Both the position numbers and the translations under genes were made by a program. From positions 4,092,001 to 4,156,000 of the forward strand of contig NZ_CP114039.1 of assembly GCF_026965535.1 (NCBI RefSeq): a DNA stretch of 64,000 nt, written 5' to 3'. Source of the stretch: Corallococcus sp. NCRR. Lineage in GTDB: Bacteria; Myxococcota; Myxococcia; Myxococcales; Myxococcaceae. Below the pieces are notes generated by a model, which was not told the DNA's origin, made no database searches, and saw nothing but the letters and a program-made list of their open reading frames with translations. Shown piece by piece: positions 9,325 through 14,475 of the stretch. How positions within the stretch are numbered: position 1 is the first letter of the stretch; each line of letters opens with the position of its first letter.

Positions 9325-10530
9325 TCAGTCCTCCAGCGCCCGGTAGGCGCCCCTGGAGAACTCCAGGGCCAGGGCATGGTCGCCGGACTGCATCCGCCGC
9401 TGGGTCAGGAGGAGGGCCGTCAGGTCCTGCTGGGGGTCGATGAAGAACATCGGTCCGTAGCCGCCGGCCCAACCGTAGCGGCCGGCGGTGGGCGAGACGC
9501 CATCCGGCTTCGTGGTGATGGACCCGCCGAAGCCCCACCCCGATGCATCCCAGAAGCCGGGGGAGAAGGGCGAGGCGGCCTTCACCTCCTCCGGAATCTG
9601 GTCCGTCAGCATCTCCTGGAGGCTCGCGGAGGACAGCAGGCGCTGGCCGCCACCCAGCAGCATCCGGCAGAACGCGAGGAGATCATCCGCCGTGGACACC
9701 AGCCCACCCTGGCCTCCTCCGGAAGGGAAGGTGGGCTGGCGCGACCAGAAGCTGTCCGCCGGTGAGTCCCATGCTTCCAGCTTCCCGGACGCATCGTCGC
9801 GCGCGTAGGCCGTCGTGAGCCGGTCGCGCTTCTCCGGGGGCACGGTGAAGGCCGTGTCCTTCATGCCCAGCGGCACGAAGAGCCGCTCGCGAAGGAAGTC
9901 ATCGAAGCGCATGCCCGAGGCACGCGCGACCAGCACGCCCAGGACCTCGTAGCCGGTGTGGTAGGCCCACCGCTCTCCGGGTTGATGCCGCAGCGGCAGC
10001 GAGCCCAGCCGCCGCATGAACTCATCGGGCGGATCCGTGAGCATGTGGAAGCCGGGCGTCACACGGGCCTCGGCCATGGCCCGCTGGATGGGGTGCTTGT
10101 CGGGAGGCGCCATCACCGCGCCCAGGCCCCAGCGCAGCGTGAGCAGGTCCCGCACGGTGATGGCGCGCTTCGCGGGGACGGTGTCGTCCACGGGCCCGTC
10201 GGGCGTTCGCAGGACGCGGCGGTCCGCCAACTCCGGCAGCCACGGGTCGACGGCGCCGTCGAGCGACAGCTTCCCGTCCTCCACGAGCATCAGCGTGGCC
10301 ACCGCCGTGATGGGTTTGGCCATGGACGCGAGCCGGAACAGGCTGTCCCGCCGCATGGGCGGCTCGGAAGGCGTGAGGCCCTGCGTGCCCAGCACGTCGA
10401 CGTGCACGGTGTCTCCGCGCGCAATCAGGGCGACGACGCCCGGAAGGTCGCCGCGCTCGACGTGGCCTCGCAGGGCGGAGGTCACGTCGGCGAGCCGGGA
10501 CGGAGAGAGCGTGGCAGCGCGTGGGGACAT
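9325..10530 (-). CDS. Serine hydrolase, beta-lactamase/DD-peptidase fold (last gene of the candidate graspetide operon)
   Basis: 401 residues of the class C beta-lactamase/esterase superfamily (Pfam Beta-lactamase). The SxxK motif is SMAK in FRLASMAKPITAV. The Tyr motif is YHTGYE in place of YxN, and the third motif appears as WAGGYGPMFFID. No signal peptide is seen, so it is probably cytoplasmic. It lies 38 nt downstream of the 2OG-oxygenase gene on the same strand and closes the run precursor, ATP-grasp ligase, oxygenase, hydrolase. Family members act as esterases, transesterases or peptidases; a role in peptide maturation or ester cleavage is only inferred from position. Confidence 0.85.
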   Translation of the reverse strand: MSPRAATLSPSRLADVTSALRGHVERGDLPGVVALIARGDTVHVDVLGTQGLTPSEPPMRRDSLFRLASMAKPITAVATLMLVEDGKLSLDGAVDPWLPELADRRVLRTPDGPVDDTVPAKRAITVRDLLTLRWGLGAVMAPPDKHPIQRAMAEARVTPGFHMLTDPPDEFMRRLGSLPLRHQPGERWAYHTGYEVLGVLVARASGMRFDDFLRERLFVPLGMKDTAFTVPPEKRDRLTTAYARDDASGKLEAWDSPADSFWSRQPTFPSGGGQGGLVSTADDLLAFCRMLLGGGQRLLSSASLQEMLTDQIPEEVKAASPFSPGFWDASGWGFGGSITTKPDGVSPTAGRYGWAGGYGPMFFIDPQQDLTALLLTQRRMQSGDHALALEFSRGAYRALED

Positions 10531-10568
10531 GGCCCTGAGTCTAGCCCGCGCCGCCGCCCGCGAGTGCC

Positions 10569-11333
10569 TCAGCGCTTCGCGAGGATGAACGCGGTGACGG
10601 AGTAGCGCTGGTGGCCCCGGGCCTCGGATGTCCATTCCGTCACGCGGTGGGGGGCGCCCCTCGCGCGGAAGATGAACACCGAGTTGAAGAGCGGCGGGAC
10701 CCGCATCATGTCCGCGTCCACCTCGGGATGCCGGAAGGTGAGGACGCCGCCGAAGCGGTCCTCCCACGGGCGCGTGAAGTTGTAGACGACGGCGAGCCCC
10801 TCCTCGTCTGTGTCCCGGTGCTCCGGGAAGAACTCGCCCACCTCCATGCGCGACACCTGCACCTGCCGCGTCTCCAGCGGCTCGGGCCAGCCGACCAGCG
10901 CTGCATGGAAGGCCGCGCCATCCGCGCTCTTGAGCCACGCGCAGAAGTCCGTCAGGGCGGAGGGCTCCTGCTGAGGCAGCGGCGCGATGTGCAGCGGATA
11001 GGGGCCGTGGTGGTGGCGCACGAAGCGCGCGTCGCGCAGGGCCTGGTGCAGCGCCTCGGCGCGCTCGGGGAAGAGGGCGTCCGTGAGGCAGAGGTGCGGC
11101 ACCCGTCCGCCTTCGATGAACTCCCGGCGCAGCGTGGCGTGCAGGGCTTCGGAGACGGAGGCCAGGCGCGTCCACGCGGTCGCGGACGCCGGGAACACCT
11201 CCGGCTTCGAGGGCGGGACGGGGCCGAAGATGCTCTCGGCGTAGTCCGTGATGAAGAACCCGCTCGGGCGCTCAGGCCTTGGAGACGAGGTAGCTGGCGA
11301 GCCGGGAGATGACTTTGCCGTCGCGCGGGTCAT
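10569..11333 (-). CDS. 2-oxoglutarate/Fe(II)-dependent oxygenase, candidate peptide-tailoring enzyme
   Basis: The facial triad is visible: HxD in FFPEHRDTDEE, a distal His in ARGAPHRV, and the 2-oxoglutarate-binding Arg in HQRYSVTAFI. FGGVLTFRHPE fits the double-stranded beta-helix core. The pattern is that of prolyl-hydroxylase-like 2OG oxygenases. The reading frame overlaps the end of the ATP-grasp gene. No ATG or GTG lies between the ligase stop and the conserved region, so translation must start inside the upstream gene; the ATG at 11333 (62-nt overlap) is chosen, with a TTG at 11369 as alternative. Such coupling suggests a common pathway. Since the precursor core is rich in Pro and Asp, hydroxylation of the peptide is a reasonable inference. 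Confidence 0.8.
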   Translation of the reverse strand: MTRATAKSSPGSPATSSPRPERPSGFFITDYAESIFGPVPPSKPEVFPASATAWTRLASVSEALHATLRREFIEGGRVPHLCLTDALFPERAEALHQALRDARFVRHHHGPYPLHIAPLPQQEPSALTDFCAWLKSADGAAFHAALVGWPEPLETRQVQVSRMEVGEFFPEHRDTDEEGLAVVYNFTRPWEDRFGGVLTFRHPEVDADMMRVPPLFNSVFIFRARGAPHRVTEWTSEARGHQRYSVTAFILAKR

Positions 11334-12210
11334 CGAAGAAGGAGATGGCGGGAGTGGGGTTGAATTCAAGCGCCACGAAGGCGCCGTCCGGTCCGCGCCG
11401 CAGGTCCACCGCCGTGAAGACCATGCCCAGCGCTTGGGCGCCCTTGAGACACACCGCCCAGGCCTCCTTCGGCAGGCGGGCGGGCTTCACCCGGTGCAGG
11501 TTCTGCCTCGCGTCCACCACGCCGTCGGTGGGGATGTGGAAGGCGGACACGGGCTCGCCGTCGAGTACGTAGGCGCGGAACTCGTCGCCCTGGATCTGCT
11601 CCTGGAACAGCACCGGACAGTTGGCGAGCAGTTGGAGCCGCTCCTCGGTGAGGTCCGCCTCCTCCACCTTGCGCACCAGCGCGCCGCCGCTCAGGGGCTT
11701 GTAGATGACGGCCCGGTGGCGCGCGACGAACTCGCGCACTGCGTCCGGCGAGGCGGTGGCCAGGGTGCTGGGGATGGGGACGCGGTGGCGGCGCAGCAGG
11801 GCCAGCTGTTGCAGCTTCAGGTAGTGCAGCTCCACCGCCTCCAGCGGGTTGACGAACGAGCCACCGCGCCGGTGGAGCGAACGCAGCACGGAGTGGAGGA
11901 ACGACTGGCGCTCCCGCTCCGCCAGGTACTGCTCCTGCCAGCGCGGGAAGTTGCGCTCGGACAGGGCCTCGGCCTCGGGGACCGGGAGCGAGAGGCGCAC
12001 GAGCTTGAGGTAGAACGAGCGCAGGTCGCTGAGACACTCACCGTCCCAGTGCACCTCGCCGTCCTCCCAGCTCAACGCGGCGGAGTCCGGGACCCGGTCC
12101 GTCTCCAGGACGATGGCTCGCGCGCGGCGCCGCTCCACCGCTTCGGCGACGAAGCGGGTGGCGTCATCCGAGCGCGAGCCGATGACCACGACCTTCTTGC
12201 GAGACGTCAT
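11272..12210 (-). CDS. ATP-grasp peptide ligase (graspetide-type macrocyclase candidate)
   Basis: 312 residues, the usual size of MvdD/MdnC/PsnB-type ATP-grasp ligases that make side-chain ester or amide links in graspetides. The N-terminal third is a pre-ATP-grasp domain. The ATP-grasp core follows: VIYKPLSGGALVRKVEE (nucleotide-binding Lys), VLFQEQIQGDEFRAYVLDG, and the Mg-binding segment VALEFNPTPAISFFDD with the E-x-N pair. It begins 28 nt after the stop of the repetitive precursor gene. Within RimK-like enzymes, alternatives are free amino-acid ligation or tubulin-like glutamylation, but adjacency to a multicore peptide gene points to RiPP cyclisation. Seen: fold motifs and context. Inferred: substrate and bond type. 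Confidence 0.85.
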   Translation of the reverse strand: MTSRKKVVVIGSRSDDATRFVAEAVERRRARAIVLETDRVPDSAALSWEDGEVHWDGECLSDLRSFYLKLVRLSLPVPEAEALSERNFPRWQEQYLAERERQSFLHSVLRSLHRRGGSFVNPLEAVELHYLKLQQLALLRRHRVPIPSTLATASPDAVREFVARHRAVIYKPLSGGALVRKVEEADLTEERLQLLANCPVLFQEQIQGDEFRAYVLDGEPVSAFHIPTDGVVDARQNLHRVKPARLPKEAWAVCLKGAQALGMVFTAVDLRRGPDGAFVALEFNPTPAISFFDDPRDGKVISRLASYLVSKA

Positions 12211-12238
12211 GGGGTCCCTGACTTCACCCGCCCGGTGC

Positions 12239-12973
12239 TCAGACCGGGCTGTCCATCTTGACCTTCACGATGCCGCCATCCAGCGGCTTGAAGTCCGGGA
12301 GCTTCAAGCCGCCGGTCGGGTCGTCCATGCGGATCTTCACCCGGCCACCGTCCGGCGGCGTGAAGTCCGGCAGCTTCGAGCCACGGGTGGGGTCATCCAT
12401 CATGACCTTCAGCACGCCGATGTCCTCCGGCGGCTTGAAGTCCGGCAGCTGCAAACCACCACCGGTCGGGTCATCCATGCGGATCTTCACCCGGCCGCCA
12501 TCCGGCGGCGTGAAGTCCGGGAGCTTCGAGCCACGGGTCGGGTCATCCATCATGACCTTCACCCGGCCGCCGTCCTGCGGCTTGAAGTCCGGCAGGTTCA
12601 AGCCACCACCGGTCGGGTCATCCATGCGGATCTTCACCCGGCCGCCATCCGGCGGCGTGAAACTCGGGAGCTTCGAGCCACGGGTCGGGTCATCCATCAT
12701 GACCTTCACCATGCCGCTGTCCTTCGGCGGCTTGAGGCCAATGCCGTCGCCCACGAACTTGTCCGCGAGCTCACGCGCCTTCGGGGTCAGCTTCACCTGC
12801 TCGAAGGCGTCGCGCACCTGGGTCTTCTGCTGCGGGCTCAGCTGGCTCGCGTCCGCGCCCTGGAGCGCCTTCTTGAGCACCGGGGCGCCCACTGCCTTGC
12901 CCGCCGTGCTGGCCGTCTTCAGGGCGGTCTGCAGCGAGGAGACGAAGCCCGTGGGGGATTTGATCTGGGTCAT
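12239..12973 (-). CDS. Candidate multicore graspetide precursor with seven K-x-x-M-D-D/S-P repeats
   Basis: 244 residues. The ATG at 12973 has an AAGGA Shine-Dalgarno about 7 nt upstream; the frame remains open further upstream, but that extension is not protein-like. Residues 1-86 form an Ala/Lys/Gln-rich leader with predicted helices (for example LSPQQKTQVRDAFEQVKL). From residue 88 the protein is almost entirely repeats of 24-25 residues with K-V/I-x-x-M-D-D-P-T at residues 90-97, 114-121, 139-146, 163-170, 189-196 and 213-220, and a degenerate terminal copy at 237-244. Two types alternate: type A (VMMDDPTRGSKLPDFTPPDGG) and type B (IRMDDPTGGGLNLPDFKPQDG). Invariant Lys, Thr, Ser and Asp supply donors and acceptors for ester/amide links. 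An ATP-grasp ligase and 2OG oxygenase follow at once. No similarity to a structural protein is recognised; precursor function is inferred from architecture and context. Confidence 0.75.
   Translation of the reverse strand: MTQIKSPTGFVSSLQTALKTASTAGKAVGAPVLKKALQGADASQLSPQQKTQVRDAFEQVKLTPKARELADKFVGDGIGLKPPKDSGMVKVMMDDPTRGSKLPSFTPPDGGRVKIRMDDPTGGGLNLPDFKPQDGGRVKVMMDDPTRGSKLPDFTPPDGGRVKIRMDDPTGGGLQLPDFKPPEDIGVLKVMMDDPTRGSKLPDFTPPDGGRVKIRMDDPTGGLKLPDFKPLDGGIVKVKMDSPV
12242..12712 (-). repeat. In-frame DNA repeats encoding the precursor cores
   Basis: Three tandem super-repeats of about 147-150 bp, each encoding one A-type plus one B-type core, end in a truncated seventh core. Copies are nearly identical at DNA level, including silent positions; for example GGATCTTCACCCGGCC recurs on the + strand near 12329, 12481 and 12627. 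All length changes are multiples of three. This points to recent duplication or gene conversion within the coding sequence. Confidence 0.9.
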
Positions 12974-13131
12974 GAAGATTCCTTTGGGAAGGTTATCGGC
13001 ATGCCCAGGCGGGAGTTGCTTGATTCTTTGAGGATGAGAGCACCCGTGGGACGGGCCTTGGCCTGGCCGCCCGCTGTCTTCCATCAGGTGTGCGCGACCC
13101 AACCCTTGAAGAAAAGGGGAGGAGACACACC

Positions 13132-14475
13132 ATGGCGCACCGAGACGACGGACTGCTGGTGCGAGCGCTCGCGGACTCCGTGCAGCCGCTCCAGAGGACG
13201 CGGGAGGACTTCGGGCCCCTGATGGACCTGGTGGGGGACGCGACGTGCGTGCTGATGGGCGAGGCGACCCACGGCACGCACGAGTTCTACCGGCTGCGCG
13301 CGCTCCTGACGCGGAGGCTCATCGAGGAGAAGGGTTTCAACGCCGTCGCGGTGGAGGCGGACTGGCCGGACGCGTACCGCATCAACCGCTACGTGCGGGC
13401 CATGGGCACCGACGCGGACGCGGTGGAGTCGCTCTCCGACTTCCAGCGCTTCCCCGCGTGGATGTGGCGCAACGCGGACGTGCTGGACTTCGCGGGCTGG
13501 CTGCGGACGCACAACGACCGCCACTCCCTGCGGGAGAAGGTCGGGTTCTACGGGCTGGACCTCTACAGCCTCCACGCCTCCATGGGCGCGGTGCTGAAGT
13601 ACCTGGACCGGGCGGATCCAGAGGCCGCGAAGCGCGCCCGCAACCGCTACGCGTGCTTCGAACACTTCGGCGAAGACCCGCAGGACTACGGCCACGCGAC
13701 GTCCCTGGGCCTGTCACCGGACTGCGAGCGGCAGGTCGTCGACCAGCTCCGCGAGCTGCAACGGGAGCGCGAAGCGCTGCTGCGCCGGGACGGGTTCATC
13801 GCGGAGGACGCGCAGTTCGAGGCGGAGCAGAACGCGCGGGTCGTCCAGGACGCGGAGGAGTACTACCGGTCCATGTTCCATGGGCGCATCTCGTCCTGGA
13901 ACCTGCGCGACACGCACATGGCGGACACGCTGGATTCGCTGATGGGCTTCCTGAAGCGGCGGCTGGGGGCCGCCCGCATCGTGGTCTGGGCGCACAACTC
14001 GCACGTCGGGGACGCGCGCGCGACGGAGATGGGGGAGGCGGGCGAGGTGAACCTGGGACAGTTGACGCGCCAGCGGCACCCGCGAGCGACGCGGCTCATC
14101 GGCTTCAGCACGTACCGGGGCACGGTCACCGCGGCCTCCAACTGGGGCGGGGCCGCCGAGCGCAAGCAGGTCCGCCACGGGCTCGCGGGCAGCTGCGAGT
14201 CCCTCTTCCATCAGGTCGGCCTGCCGGGCTTCCTGCTGGACCTCCGCGAGCTGGGCGAGGCCGCCGGGGCGCTCCGCGAGCGGCGCCTGCAGCGGGCCAT
14301 CGGCGTCATCTACCGGCCTGAAACGGAGCGCAGGAGCCACTACTTCCACACGCGGCTGCCGCAGCAGTTCGACGCGATGTTGCACATCGACGAGACGCGG
14401 GCGCTCGAACCGCTGGAGCGCACCGCCGGATGGGAGCGCGGTGAAGCGCCGGAGACCTATCCGACGGGCCTGTAG
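13132..14475 (+). CDS. Erythromycin esterase family protein
   Basis: 447 residues with the family signatures [14 protein letters not shown] near the N-terminus (containing the presumed catalytic His), [15 protein letters not shown] and [10 protein letters not shown]. EreA/EreB hydrolyse the macrolide lactone, but most homologues in soil bacteria, often named succinoglycan-biosynthesis-like, have unknown substrates. The ATG at 13132 follows a strong GGAGG site. It is divergent from the graspetide-type operon with 158 bp between starts, so a shared promoter region is likely. A role as esterase towards an ester-linked peptide is speculative. Confidence 0.88.

Follow-up and report, generated by a model that had tools for sequence, protein, structure and literature searches.

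Corallotide, the graspetide of group 15, is the described system closest to the locus considered here. It was reported from Corallococcus exercitus by Carter et al. (ACS Chem Biol, March 2026; PMC13097080) with four proteins, namely the large precursor CorA, the TIGR04187 protein CorB, the PF13640 protein CorC, and the PF00144 protein CorD. CorB joins a Lys of CorA to the Asp four residues further on, Asp(+4), as an isopeptide, and CorC, which binds and activates CorB, afterwards hydroxylates the delta-carbon of that Lys. This chemistry was solved by nuclear magnetic resonance (NMR) and in-vitro reconstitution, and the expression and copurification of CorA-D are published as well. According to the same text (PMC13097080), residues 1-86 of CorA form a helical domain bound by CorB, CorC, and CorD, a tagged CorA of ~22 kDa is modified in five KxxxD areas, with KIVAD as the NMR-solved site, and corallotide is likened to collagen though it is devoid of Gly-Xaa-Yaa. 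The present analysis deals with the putative counterpart of this pathway in a stretch of 64,000 nucleotides from Corallococcus sp. NCRR (contig NZ_CP114039.1, positions 4,092,001 to 4,156,000), hereafter the window. An earlier note, made from the letters of this stretch, had proposed here a graspetide pathway that may form a new group.

Identification as a corallotide cluster

The window almost certainly encodes the Corallococcus corallotide (graspetide group 15) pathway. The precursor of C. exercitus AB043A (L067 = G019) contains the published NMR fragment NPDDGVIVKIVADDPLR verbatim, and the same chain also carries five KVMMDDPTRG/KIRMDDPTGG repeats like those of the window, while CorB, CorC, and CorD of the window are 93%, 88%, and 84% identical to their AB043A counterparts. 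Because the published fragment and the window-type repeats stand in one C. exercitus precursor, accompanied by orthologous CorB, CorC, and CorD, the window locus is of an already known kind, namely one more corallotide cluster. It displays the features of group 15, that is, a large precursor with repeated KxxxD, a co-encoded divergent 2-oxoglutarate (2OG)-Fe(II) oxygenase, and a co-encoded beta-lactamase-fold protein, as well as those of graspetides in general: an ATP-grasp ligase of the synthetase kind and, next to it, a precursor whose donor and acceptor residues are conserved. Some points nevertheless weigh on the other side. The product chemistry was published for C. exercitus, and the window strain is known here from its genes alone; the site types of the window (KVMMD, KIRMD, and KVKMDS) do not include the NMR-solved KIVAD; and the match to the published CorA was made by a fragment, not letter by letter against the WP_ accessions of the paper.

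Regarding the ligase, CorB matches the RimK and GSH-S ATP-grasp models of Pfam, and its best NCBIfam model is TIGR04187 (E 1.9e-25, 89.8 bits, below the curated cut-off of 350). Among PDB chains it matches 7drm best (E 1.1e-40), a chain that we take to be PsnB, the plesiocin synthetase (the file title reads 'ATP-grasp domain-containing protein'), and weaker matches are found to 5ig8 and 5ig9 (E 1.8e-10 and 1.7e-8), presumably microviridin ATP-grasp ligases. A ligase tree of 23 rows contains a clade of the 11 CorB rows (99/99), another of PsnB with six ligases of the family (99/99), and a third of three RimK-family rows from the window's genome (99/98), whose frames were hand-picked among candidates, with a long-branch warning that flags the RimK rows and the CorB of G182 among others. 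By sequence comparison, CorB is thus placed with the graspetide synthetases and not with RimK.

These data bear on two other readings of the locus. The one contained in the earlier note, a new graspetide group with a Lys/Thr-Asp core apart from all published groups, agrees with the absence of any NCBIfam model passed at its cut-off and with a core that, as the note had pointed out, differs from the microviridin and plesiocin motifs, no TTxxxxEE being present in the window CorA. However, every gene has an ortholog in a C. exercitus locus whose precursor contains the published fragment, C. exercitus being also the source of the published group 15 cluster, and Thr is not conserved; the proposal is refuted by that locus together with PMC13097080, and a new group is accordingly highly improbable. 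Still less credible is a RimK-type amino-acid ligase adding or linking residues on a repeat protein that would not be a ribosomally synthesized and post-translationally modified peptide (RiPP), with the oxygenase as a bystander. The RimK-like Pfam matches and the protein-sized precursor would suit such an enzyme, but CorB reaches 143 bits with 7drm against 24.6 bits with RimK 4iwx, and corC overlaps corB and is even fused to it in genome G185. The reading was dropped on the tree, where the RimK proteins of the same genome, subject to the long-branch warning, form a clade that excludes CorB.

The graspetide pathway as such, which the earlier note had read from the locus, is therefore borne out by the TIGR04187 match, the 7drm chain, and the separation from RimK. 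Of the two observations that the note had named as refuting it, a ligase clustering with RimK-type enzymes was not found, as described above, nor was a precursor mostly devoid of a neighbouring ATP-grasp gene: in the 96 genomes of the window's family (the family set), CorB adjoins the precursor in 18 of the 20 with a precursor match. The two exceptions are G029, in which corB is deleted, and G061, in which the ATP-grasp match lies on another contig and the precursor match (E 1e-8, 28% identity) was treated as repeat-driven. As a separate observation, corB of G027, a metagenome-assembled genome (L099/L069), is in frame but devoid of ~45 residues including the KPLxGG stretch, either by true loss or by an assembly fault.

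Conserved residues of the precursor

The window CorA, for which no family of Pfam or NCBIfam reaches its cut-off, contains seven K-x-x-x-D sites at a spacing of 24-26 residues, made of three KVMMDDPT, three KIRMDDPT, and a last KVKMDSPV, so that KxxMDDPT is found at six of the seven. Across 23 precursor pieces, 141 sites fit K...D[DESTN][PS], a pattern picked after the repeats had been seen, compared to a mean of 2.5 and a maximum of 9 in shuffles (n=500). The per-column counts derived from this pattern are circular for K, D, and the two positions after D, which the pattern itself prescribes, and were superseded by counts anchored on neighbouring residues, in which repeats sharing a chain, or chains from close relatives, are not independent of one another. 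With such anchoring, the residue preceding [VI]x[MAS]DxP is K in 138/138 cases and the +4 residue in K[VI]x[MAS]xxP is D in 138/138, whereas the +5 residue of the latter varies (D84, E35, S15, T2, V1, Q1). Such variation beside an unchanging K and D(+4) is compatible with one ring only, between K and D(+4), and agrees with the published ring. After K[VI]x[MAS]D, the +6 residue is P in 138/139, while the +7 residue is Thr in only 64/139, even though Thr is kept at six of seven sites within the window CorA. Across precursors, K, D(+4), and P(+6) are therefore fixed and Thr is not, which is new as far as could be checked. Of the conserved Lys, Thr/Ser, and Asp initially proposed for this core, Lys and Asp thus stand, and Thr/Ser as a ring donor was dropped in view of the +7 counts.

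Besides, the number of repeats per precursor ranges from 2 to 9, and those of a given chain are similar to one another, as though homogenised (L014, L012, L016, and other corA loci). In four Corallococcus precursors (G023, G025, G027, and G030), the leader is shortened to 63-66 residues.

The oxygenase CorC

CorC matches PF13640 (E 1.8e-10), and its residues H159-x-D161, H216, and R230 are invariant in two alignments of 8 and 4 rows. Its structure model is poor, with a mean predicted local distance difference test (pLDDT) score of 58.1 and a predicted template modelling (pTM) score of 0.63, and the solved folds nearest to this low-confidence model are Tpa1/PHD2. Weak profile matches to the Tpa1/OGFOD1/PHD2-EGLN1 group (E 9.5e-6 and ~0.01) agree with the model, which was used for no more than to propose that CorC probably adopts a prolyl-hydroxylase-like fold.

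CorD, pathway enzyme or neighbour

The serine hydrolase CorD (PF00144, E 5.4e-67) had been counted as a pathway member; its gene does adjoin corC, but it is most likely a neighbour belonging to the core of the genus rather than a protein dedicated to the pathway. A corD relative of at least 66% identity is present in 16/16 Corallococcus genomes, including two in which corABC is absent or broken. In G028 (L153, 12487-12537), which is without corABC, the window-aligned flanks lie 49 bp apart and the counterpart of window 10533-13060 is missing, the flanking stretches ending at an intact corD on one side and beginning before the upstream neighbour on the other. In G029 (L098, ~9426-10001), window 10984-12769 is missing, corB is gone, and a piece of corA is joined to the tail of corC, with corD and the flanks intact. 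The ratio of nonsynonymous to synonymous substitution rates (dN/dS) of CorD is 0.24-0.34 in 11 pairs with G028 or G029 and 0.25-0.38 in 10 pairs of cluster-bearing genomes, and is thus not relaxed in the former, in a comparison that used 7 of the 16 genomes and in which pairs share branches. Outside Corallococcus, no CorD match (E 1e-5) was found within 16-19.5 kb around corABC in 6/6 family genomes; in G002, a 54% CorD relative lies 1.9 Mb away. Because corD is retained in every Corallococcus genome, including G028 and G029, and is absent beside corABC in these six genomes, CorD does not appear to be tied to the pathway, a finding that is new as far as could be checked, and outside the window corD is an unreliable marker of it.

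In line with a dedicated corallotide maturation enzyme, be it a protease, an esterase, or a partner, corD lies ~160 nt or less from corC in 13 of the 14 Corallococcus clusters, and SxxK and YHTGY are kept in 7/7 copies checked out of 16. Against a mere neighbour, it is also published that CorD binds to CorA and that hydroxylation in E. coli is higher in its presence, which speaks for some role (PMC13097080). The same text nonetheless describes CorD as non-essential, of unknown function, and without effect in vitro, and in G024 corD stands 5.4 kb from corC; added to the genomes in which corD persists without an intact cluster, and to the outside clusters that have no CorD match beside them, this makes a dedicated enzyme unlikely. 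Apart from this question, CorD diverges faster than its neighbours, the window and G018 being 88% identical in CorD and 98% in CorB and CorC.

Spread of corABC in the phylum

According to PMC13097080, group 15 is restricted to Corallococcus, and homologues of the oxygenase occur only in this architecture. In the family set, with g1 as the genus code of Corallococcus, CorB relatives of at least 70% identity were found in 14/16 g1, 3/27 g19, and 1/6 g3 genomes, and more distant ones (41 and 44% identity) in 2/6 g4 genomes. CorC matches occur in the same 20 genomes, plus fragments in G029. In a phylum set of 195 genomes, the CorC profile at E 1e-8 or better retrieves 24, namely those 21, G066 with a weak and partial match, and G182 and G185, which belong to two other families of the phylum. 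CorB adjoins CorC in 22/22 genomes of this set with a near-full-length CorC, once as a fusion, a count that excludes G066 (E 4e-9, 82 residues) and the G029 fragments and includes G027 despite the residues missing from its CorB. Outside Corallococcus, corABC-like clusters are thus present in six other family genomes and in two genomes of other families. The statement that the oxygenase is found only in this architecture holds here for the CorB-CorC pair, whereas the restriction to Corallococcus does not under the genus codes used. Some g19 genomes could be called Corallococcus at NCBI, which would not explain the two other families.

Unusual relatives

In G185 (L156:2850-4613, minus strand), CorB and CorC are encoded by one open frame of 587 codons, with a RimK-like region at 163-325 and PF13640 at 499-584, in which the CorC residues H159, D161, H216, and R230 are kept. 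Beside this fusion lies a 470-aa protein that contains KIRADDP twice and has an extended C-terminal portion. As it stems from a single genome, a frameshift error at the junction may have produced it.

The precursor of G182, split over two contig ends (L175:2-955 and L155:11760-12146, both on the minus strand), alternates TTEAxGEE(D) and KVRADDP repeats, and is followed downstream by a ligase grouping with that of G008 (95/95), a CorB-like ligase, and CorC. The G008 ligase, which is the nearest tree row to G182's ligase other than the CorB-like one, is encoded on the strand opposite to a precursor (L178/L025) with eight TTxxxxEE and no KxxxDDP in its visible ~185 aa, which reach a contig end. 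The simplest explanation would be that G182 employs one ligase per core type. Finally, the precursors of G009 and G010 begin with MRIR... and carry short, collagen-like GKP runs; since at most 22 and 27 residues, respectively, separate the preceding stop from the ATG, the usual leader of ~89 residues is absent.

The outlying clusters may perform the same chemistry, a prediction from their sequences to which we give about an even chance. On a broader view, which we hold to be just as evenly poised, CorB-CorC would be a portable hydroxy-isopeptide stapling module of Myxococcota acting on unrelated scaffolds, not a natural-product pathway of Corallococcus. These scaffolds would be the repeat protein in Corallococcus and, in G009 and G010, the GKP-run precursors that do not have the usual leader; in G185, a linker inside the 470-aa protein would be modified by a single fused synthetase-hydroxylase, and in G182, plesiocin-type ester rings would alternate with corallotide-type rings, the work of two ligases that each prefer their own core. 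Literature searches, which covered the accessible text of PMC13097080 and PMC8939145, returned neither the fusion, nor the hybrid precursor, nor the wider spread. As far as could be checked, the corABC-like clusters beyond Corallococcus, the CorB-CorC fusion, the hybrid two-core precursor, and the two precursors without the usual leader are therefore new.

Proposed mechanism

By orthology, the chemistry at the window locus would be that of C. exercitus. CorA would have a helical region at its N-terminus, with K-x-x-x-D-(D/S)-P repeats arrayed towards its C-terminus. CorB would use ATP to activate the Asp four residues after each Lys, whose amine would attack it to close an isopeptide ring (-18.011 Da), and CorC, complexed with CorB and activating it, would then hydroxylate the delta-carbon of each stapled Lys (+15.995 Da). 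The net change would be -2.016 Da per repeat, or ~-14 Da if all seven sites of the window react.

In a comparison of nine clusters restricted to open frames of at least 150 residues, which smaller shared genes would escape, only CorB and CorC are common to all, and similarity to CorA is found in five of the nine. Beyond CorA-C and shadow frames of these genes, no such frame is common to more than two clusters, and neither a common protease nor a common exporter was seen around them. Together with the arrangement in G185, this suggests that the stapled repeats stay within the whole protein, the product being a retained protein of ~26 kDa with repeated staples rather than a small excised peptide, and stapled CorA may have a structural role.

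Gene layout

All four genes are carried by the minus strand in the order corA, corB, corC, corD (Table 1), and both coordinates and family matches confirm the gene set initially described, that is, a repeat precursor, an ATP-grasp ligase 28 nt downstream, an overlapping 2OG oxygenase, and a serine hydrolase. The ATG of corC lies within corB, with an overlap of 62 nt, and a TTG at 11369 is the sole ATG/GTG/TTG alternative to it ahead of the conserved N-terminus; 38 nt separate corC from corD. The upstream neighbour (13090-14475, plus strand), judging by its sequence, presumably encodes a protein of the erythromycin-esterase family.

Table 1. Features of the corallotide locus, in window positions
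Feature	Position	Strand	Description
corA	12239..12973	-	precursor, 244 aa, ~25.9 kDa
corB	11272..12210	-	graspetide synthetase (ATP-grasp), 312 aa
corC	10569..11333	-	2OG-Fe(II) oxygenase, predicted isopeptide-Lys 5-hydroxylase, 254 aa from ATG
corD	9325..10530	-	beta-lactamase-fold, esterase-like hydrolase, 401 aa
CorA N-terminal leader-like region	12707..12973	-	residues 1-89, ahead of the first K-x-x-x-D
CorA site 1	12686..12706	-	KVMMDDP, Lys90
CorA site 2	12614..12634	-	KIRMDDP, Lys114
CorA site 3	12539..12559	-	KVMMDDP, Lys139
CorA site 4	12467..12487	-	KIRMDDP, Lys163
CorA site 5	12389..12409	-	KVMMDDP, Lys189
CorA site 6	12317..12337	-	KIRMDDP, Lys213
CorA site 7	12245..12265	-	KVKMDSP, Lys237, variant C-terminal site

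Comparison with known systems

The window locus is not to be counted as a new graspetide group, and its relatives matter more than the locus itself, as they speak against two published statements, namely that the group is restricted to Corallococcus and that the beta-lactamase is a constant member of the architecture. In this context, the CorB-CorC fusion of G185 is a natural counterpart of the reported complex of the two proteins, and the G182 precursor, with its two core types, allows a direct test of how paired graspetide synthetases recognise their cores.

In comparison with plesiocin and group 2, the window shares the use of repeat cores in one precursor and a synthetase whose nearest solved relative is PsnB (7drm), but CorB and PsnB fall in separate clades, and the plesiocin core motif TTxxxxEE, as given in the earlier note, is found in the relatives G182 and G008 and not in the window CorA. 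To our knowledge, the plesiocin pathway has no oxygenase. With the microviridins of group 1, the resemblance lies in ATP-grasp side-chain ligation, with Lys amides and Ser/Thr esters, while the microviridins differ in having two ligases and a cage-like TxKxPSD core (a motif likewise taken from the earlier note). The prolyl hydroxylases Tpa1, OGFOD1, and PHD2/EGLN1 are the nearest folds to CorC, in which their HxD...H and Arg are kept, but the substrate of CorC is, as published (PMC13097080), a Lys already engaged in an isopeptide ring. Finally, the resemblance to the published corallotide (PMC13097080) extends to the gene set, the TIGR04187, PF13640, and PF00144 families, the KxxxD repeats, and the N-terminal domain, and identical repeat types are found in the C. 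exercitus precursor; the window CorA is set apart by its seven sites and the absence of KIVAD, compared to the five modified areas of the tagged ~22 kDa CorA of that report.

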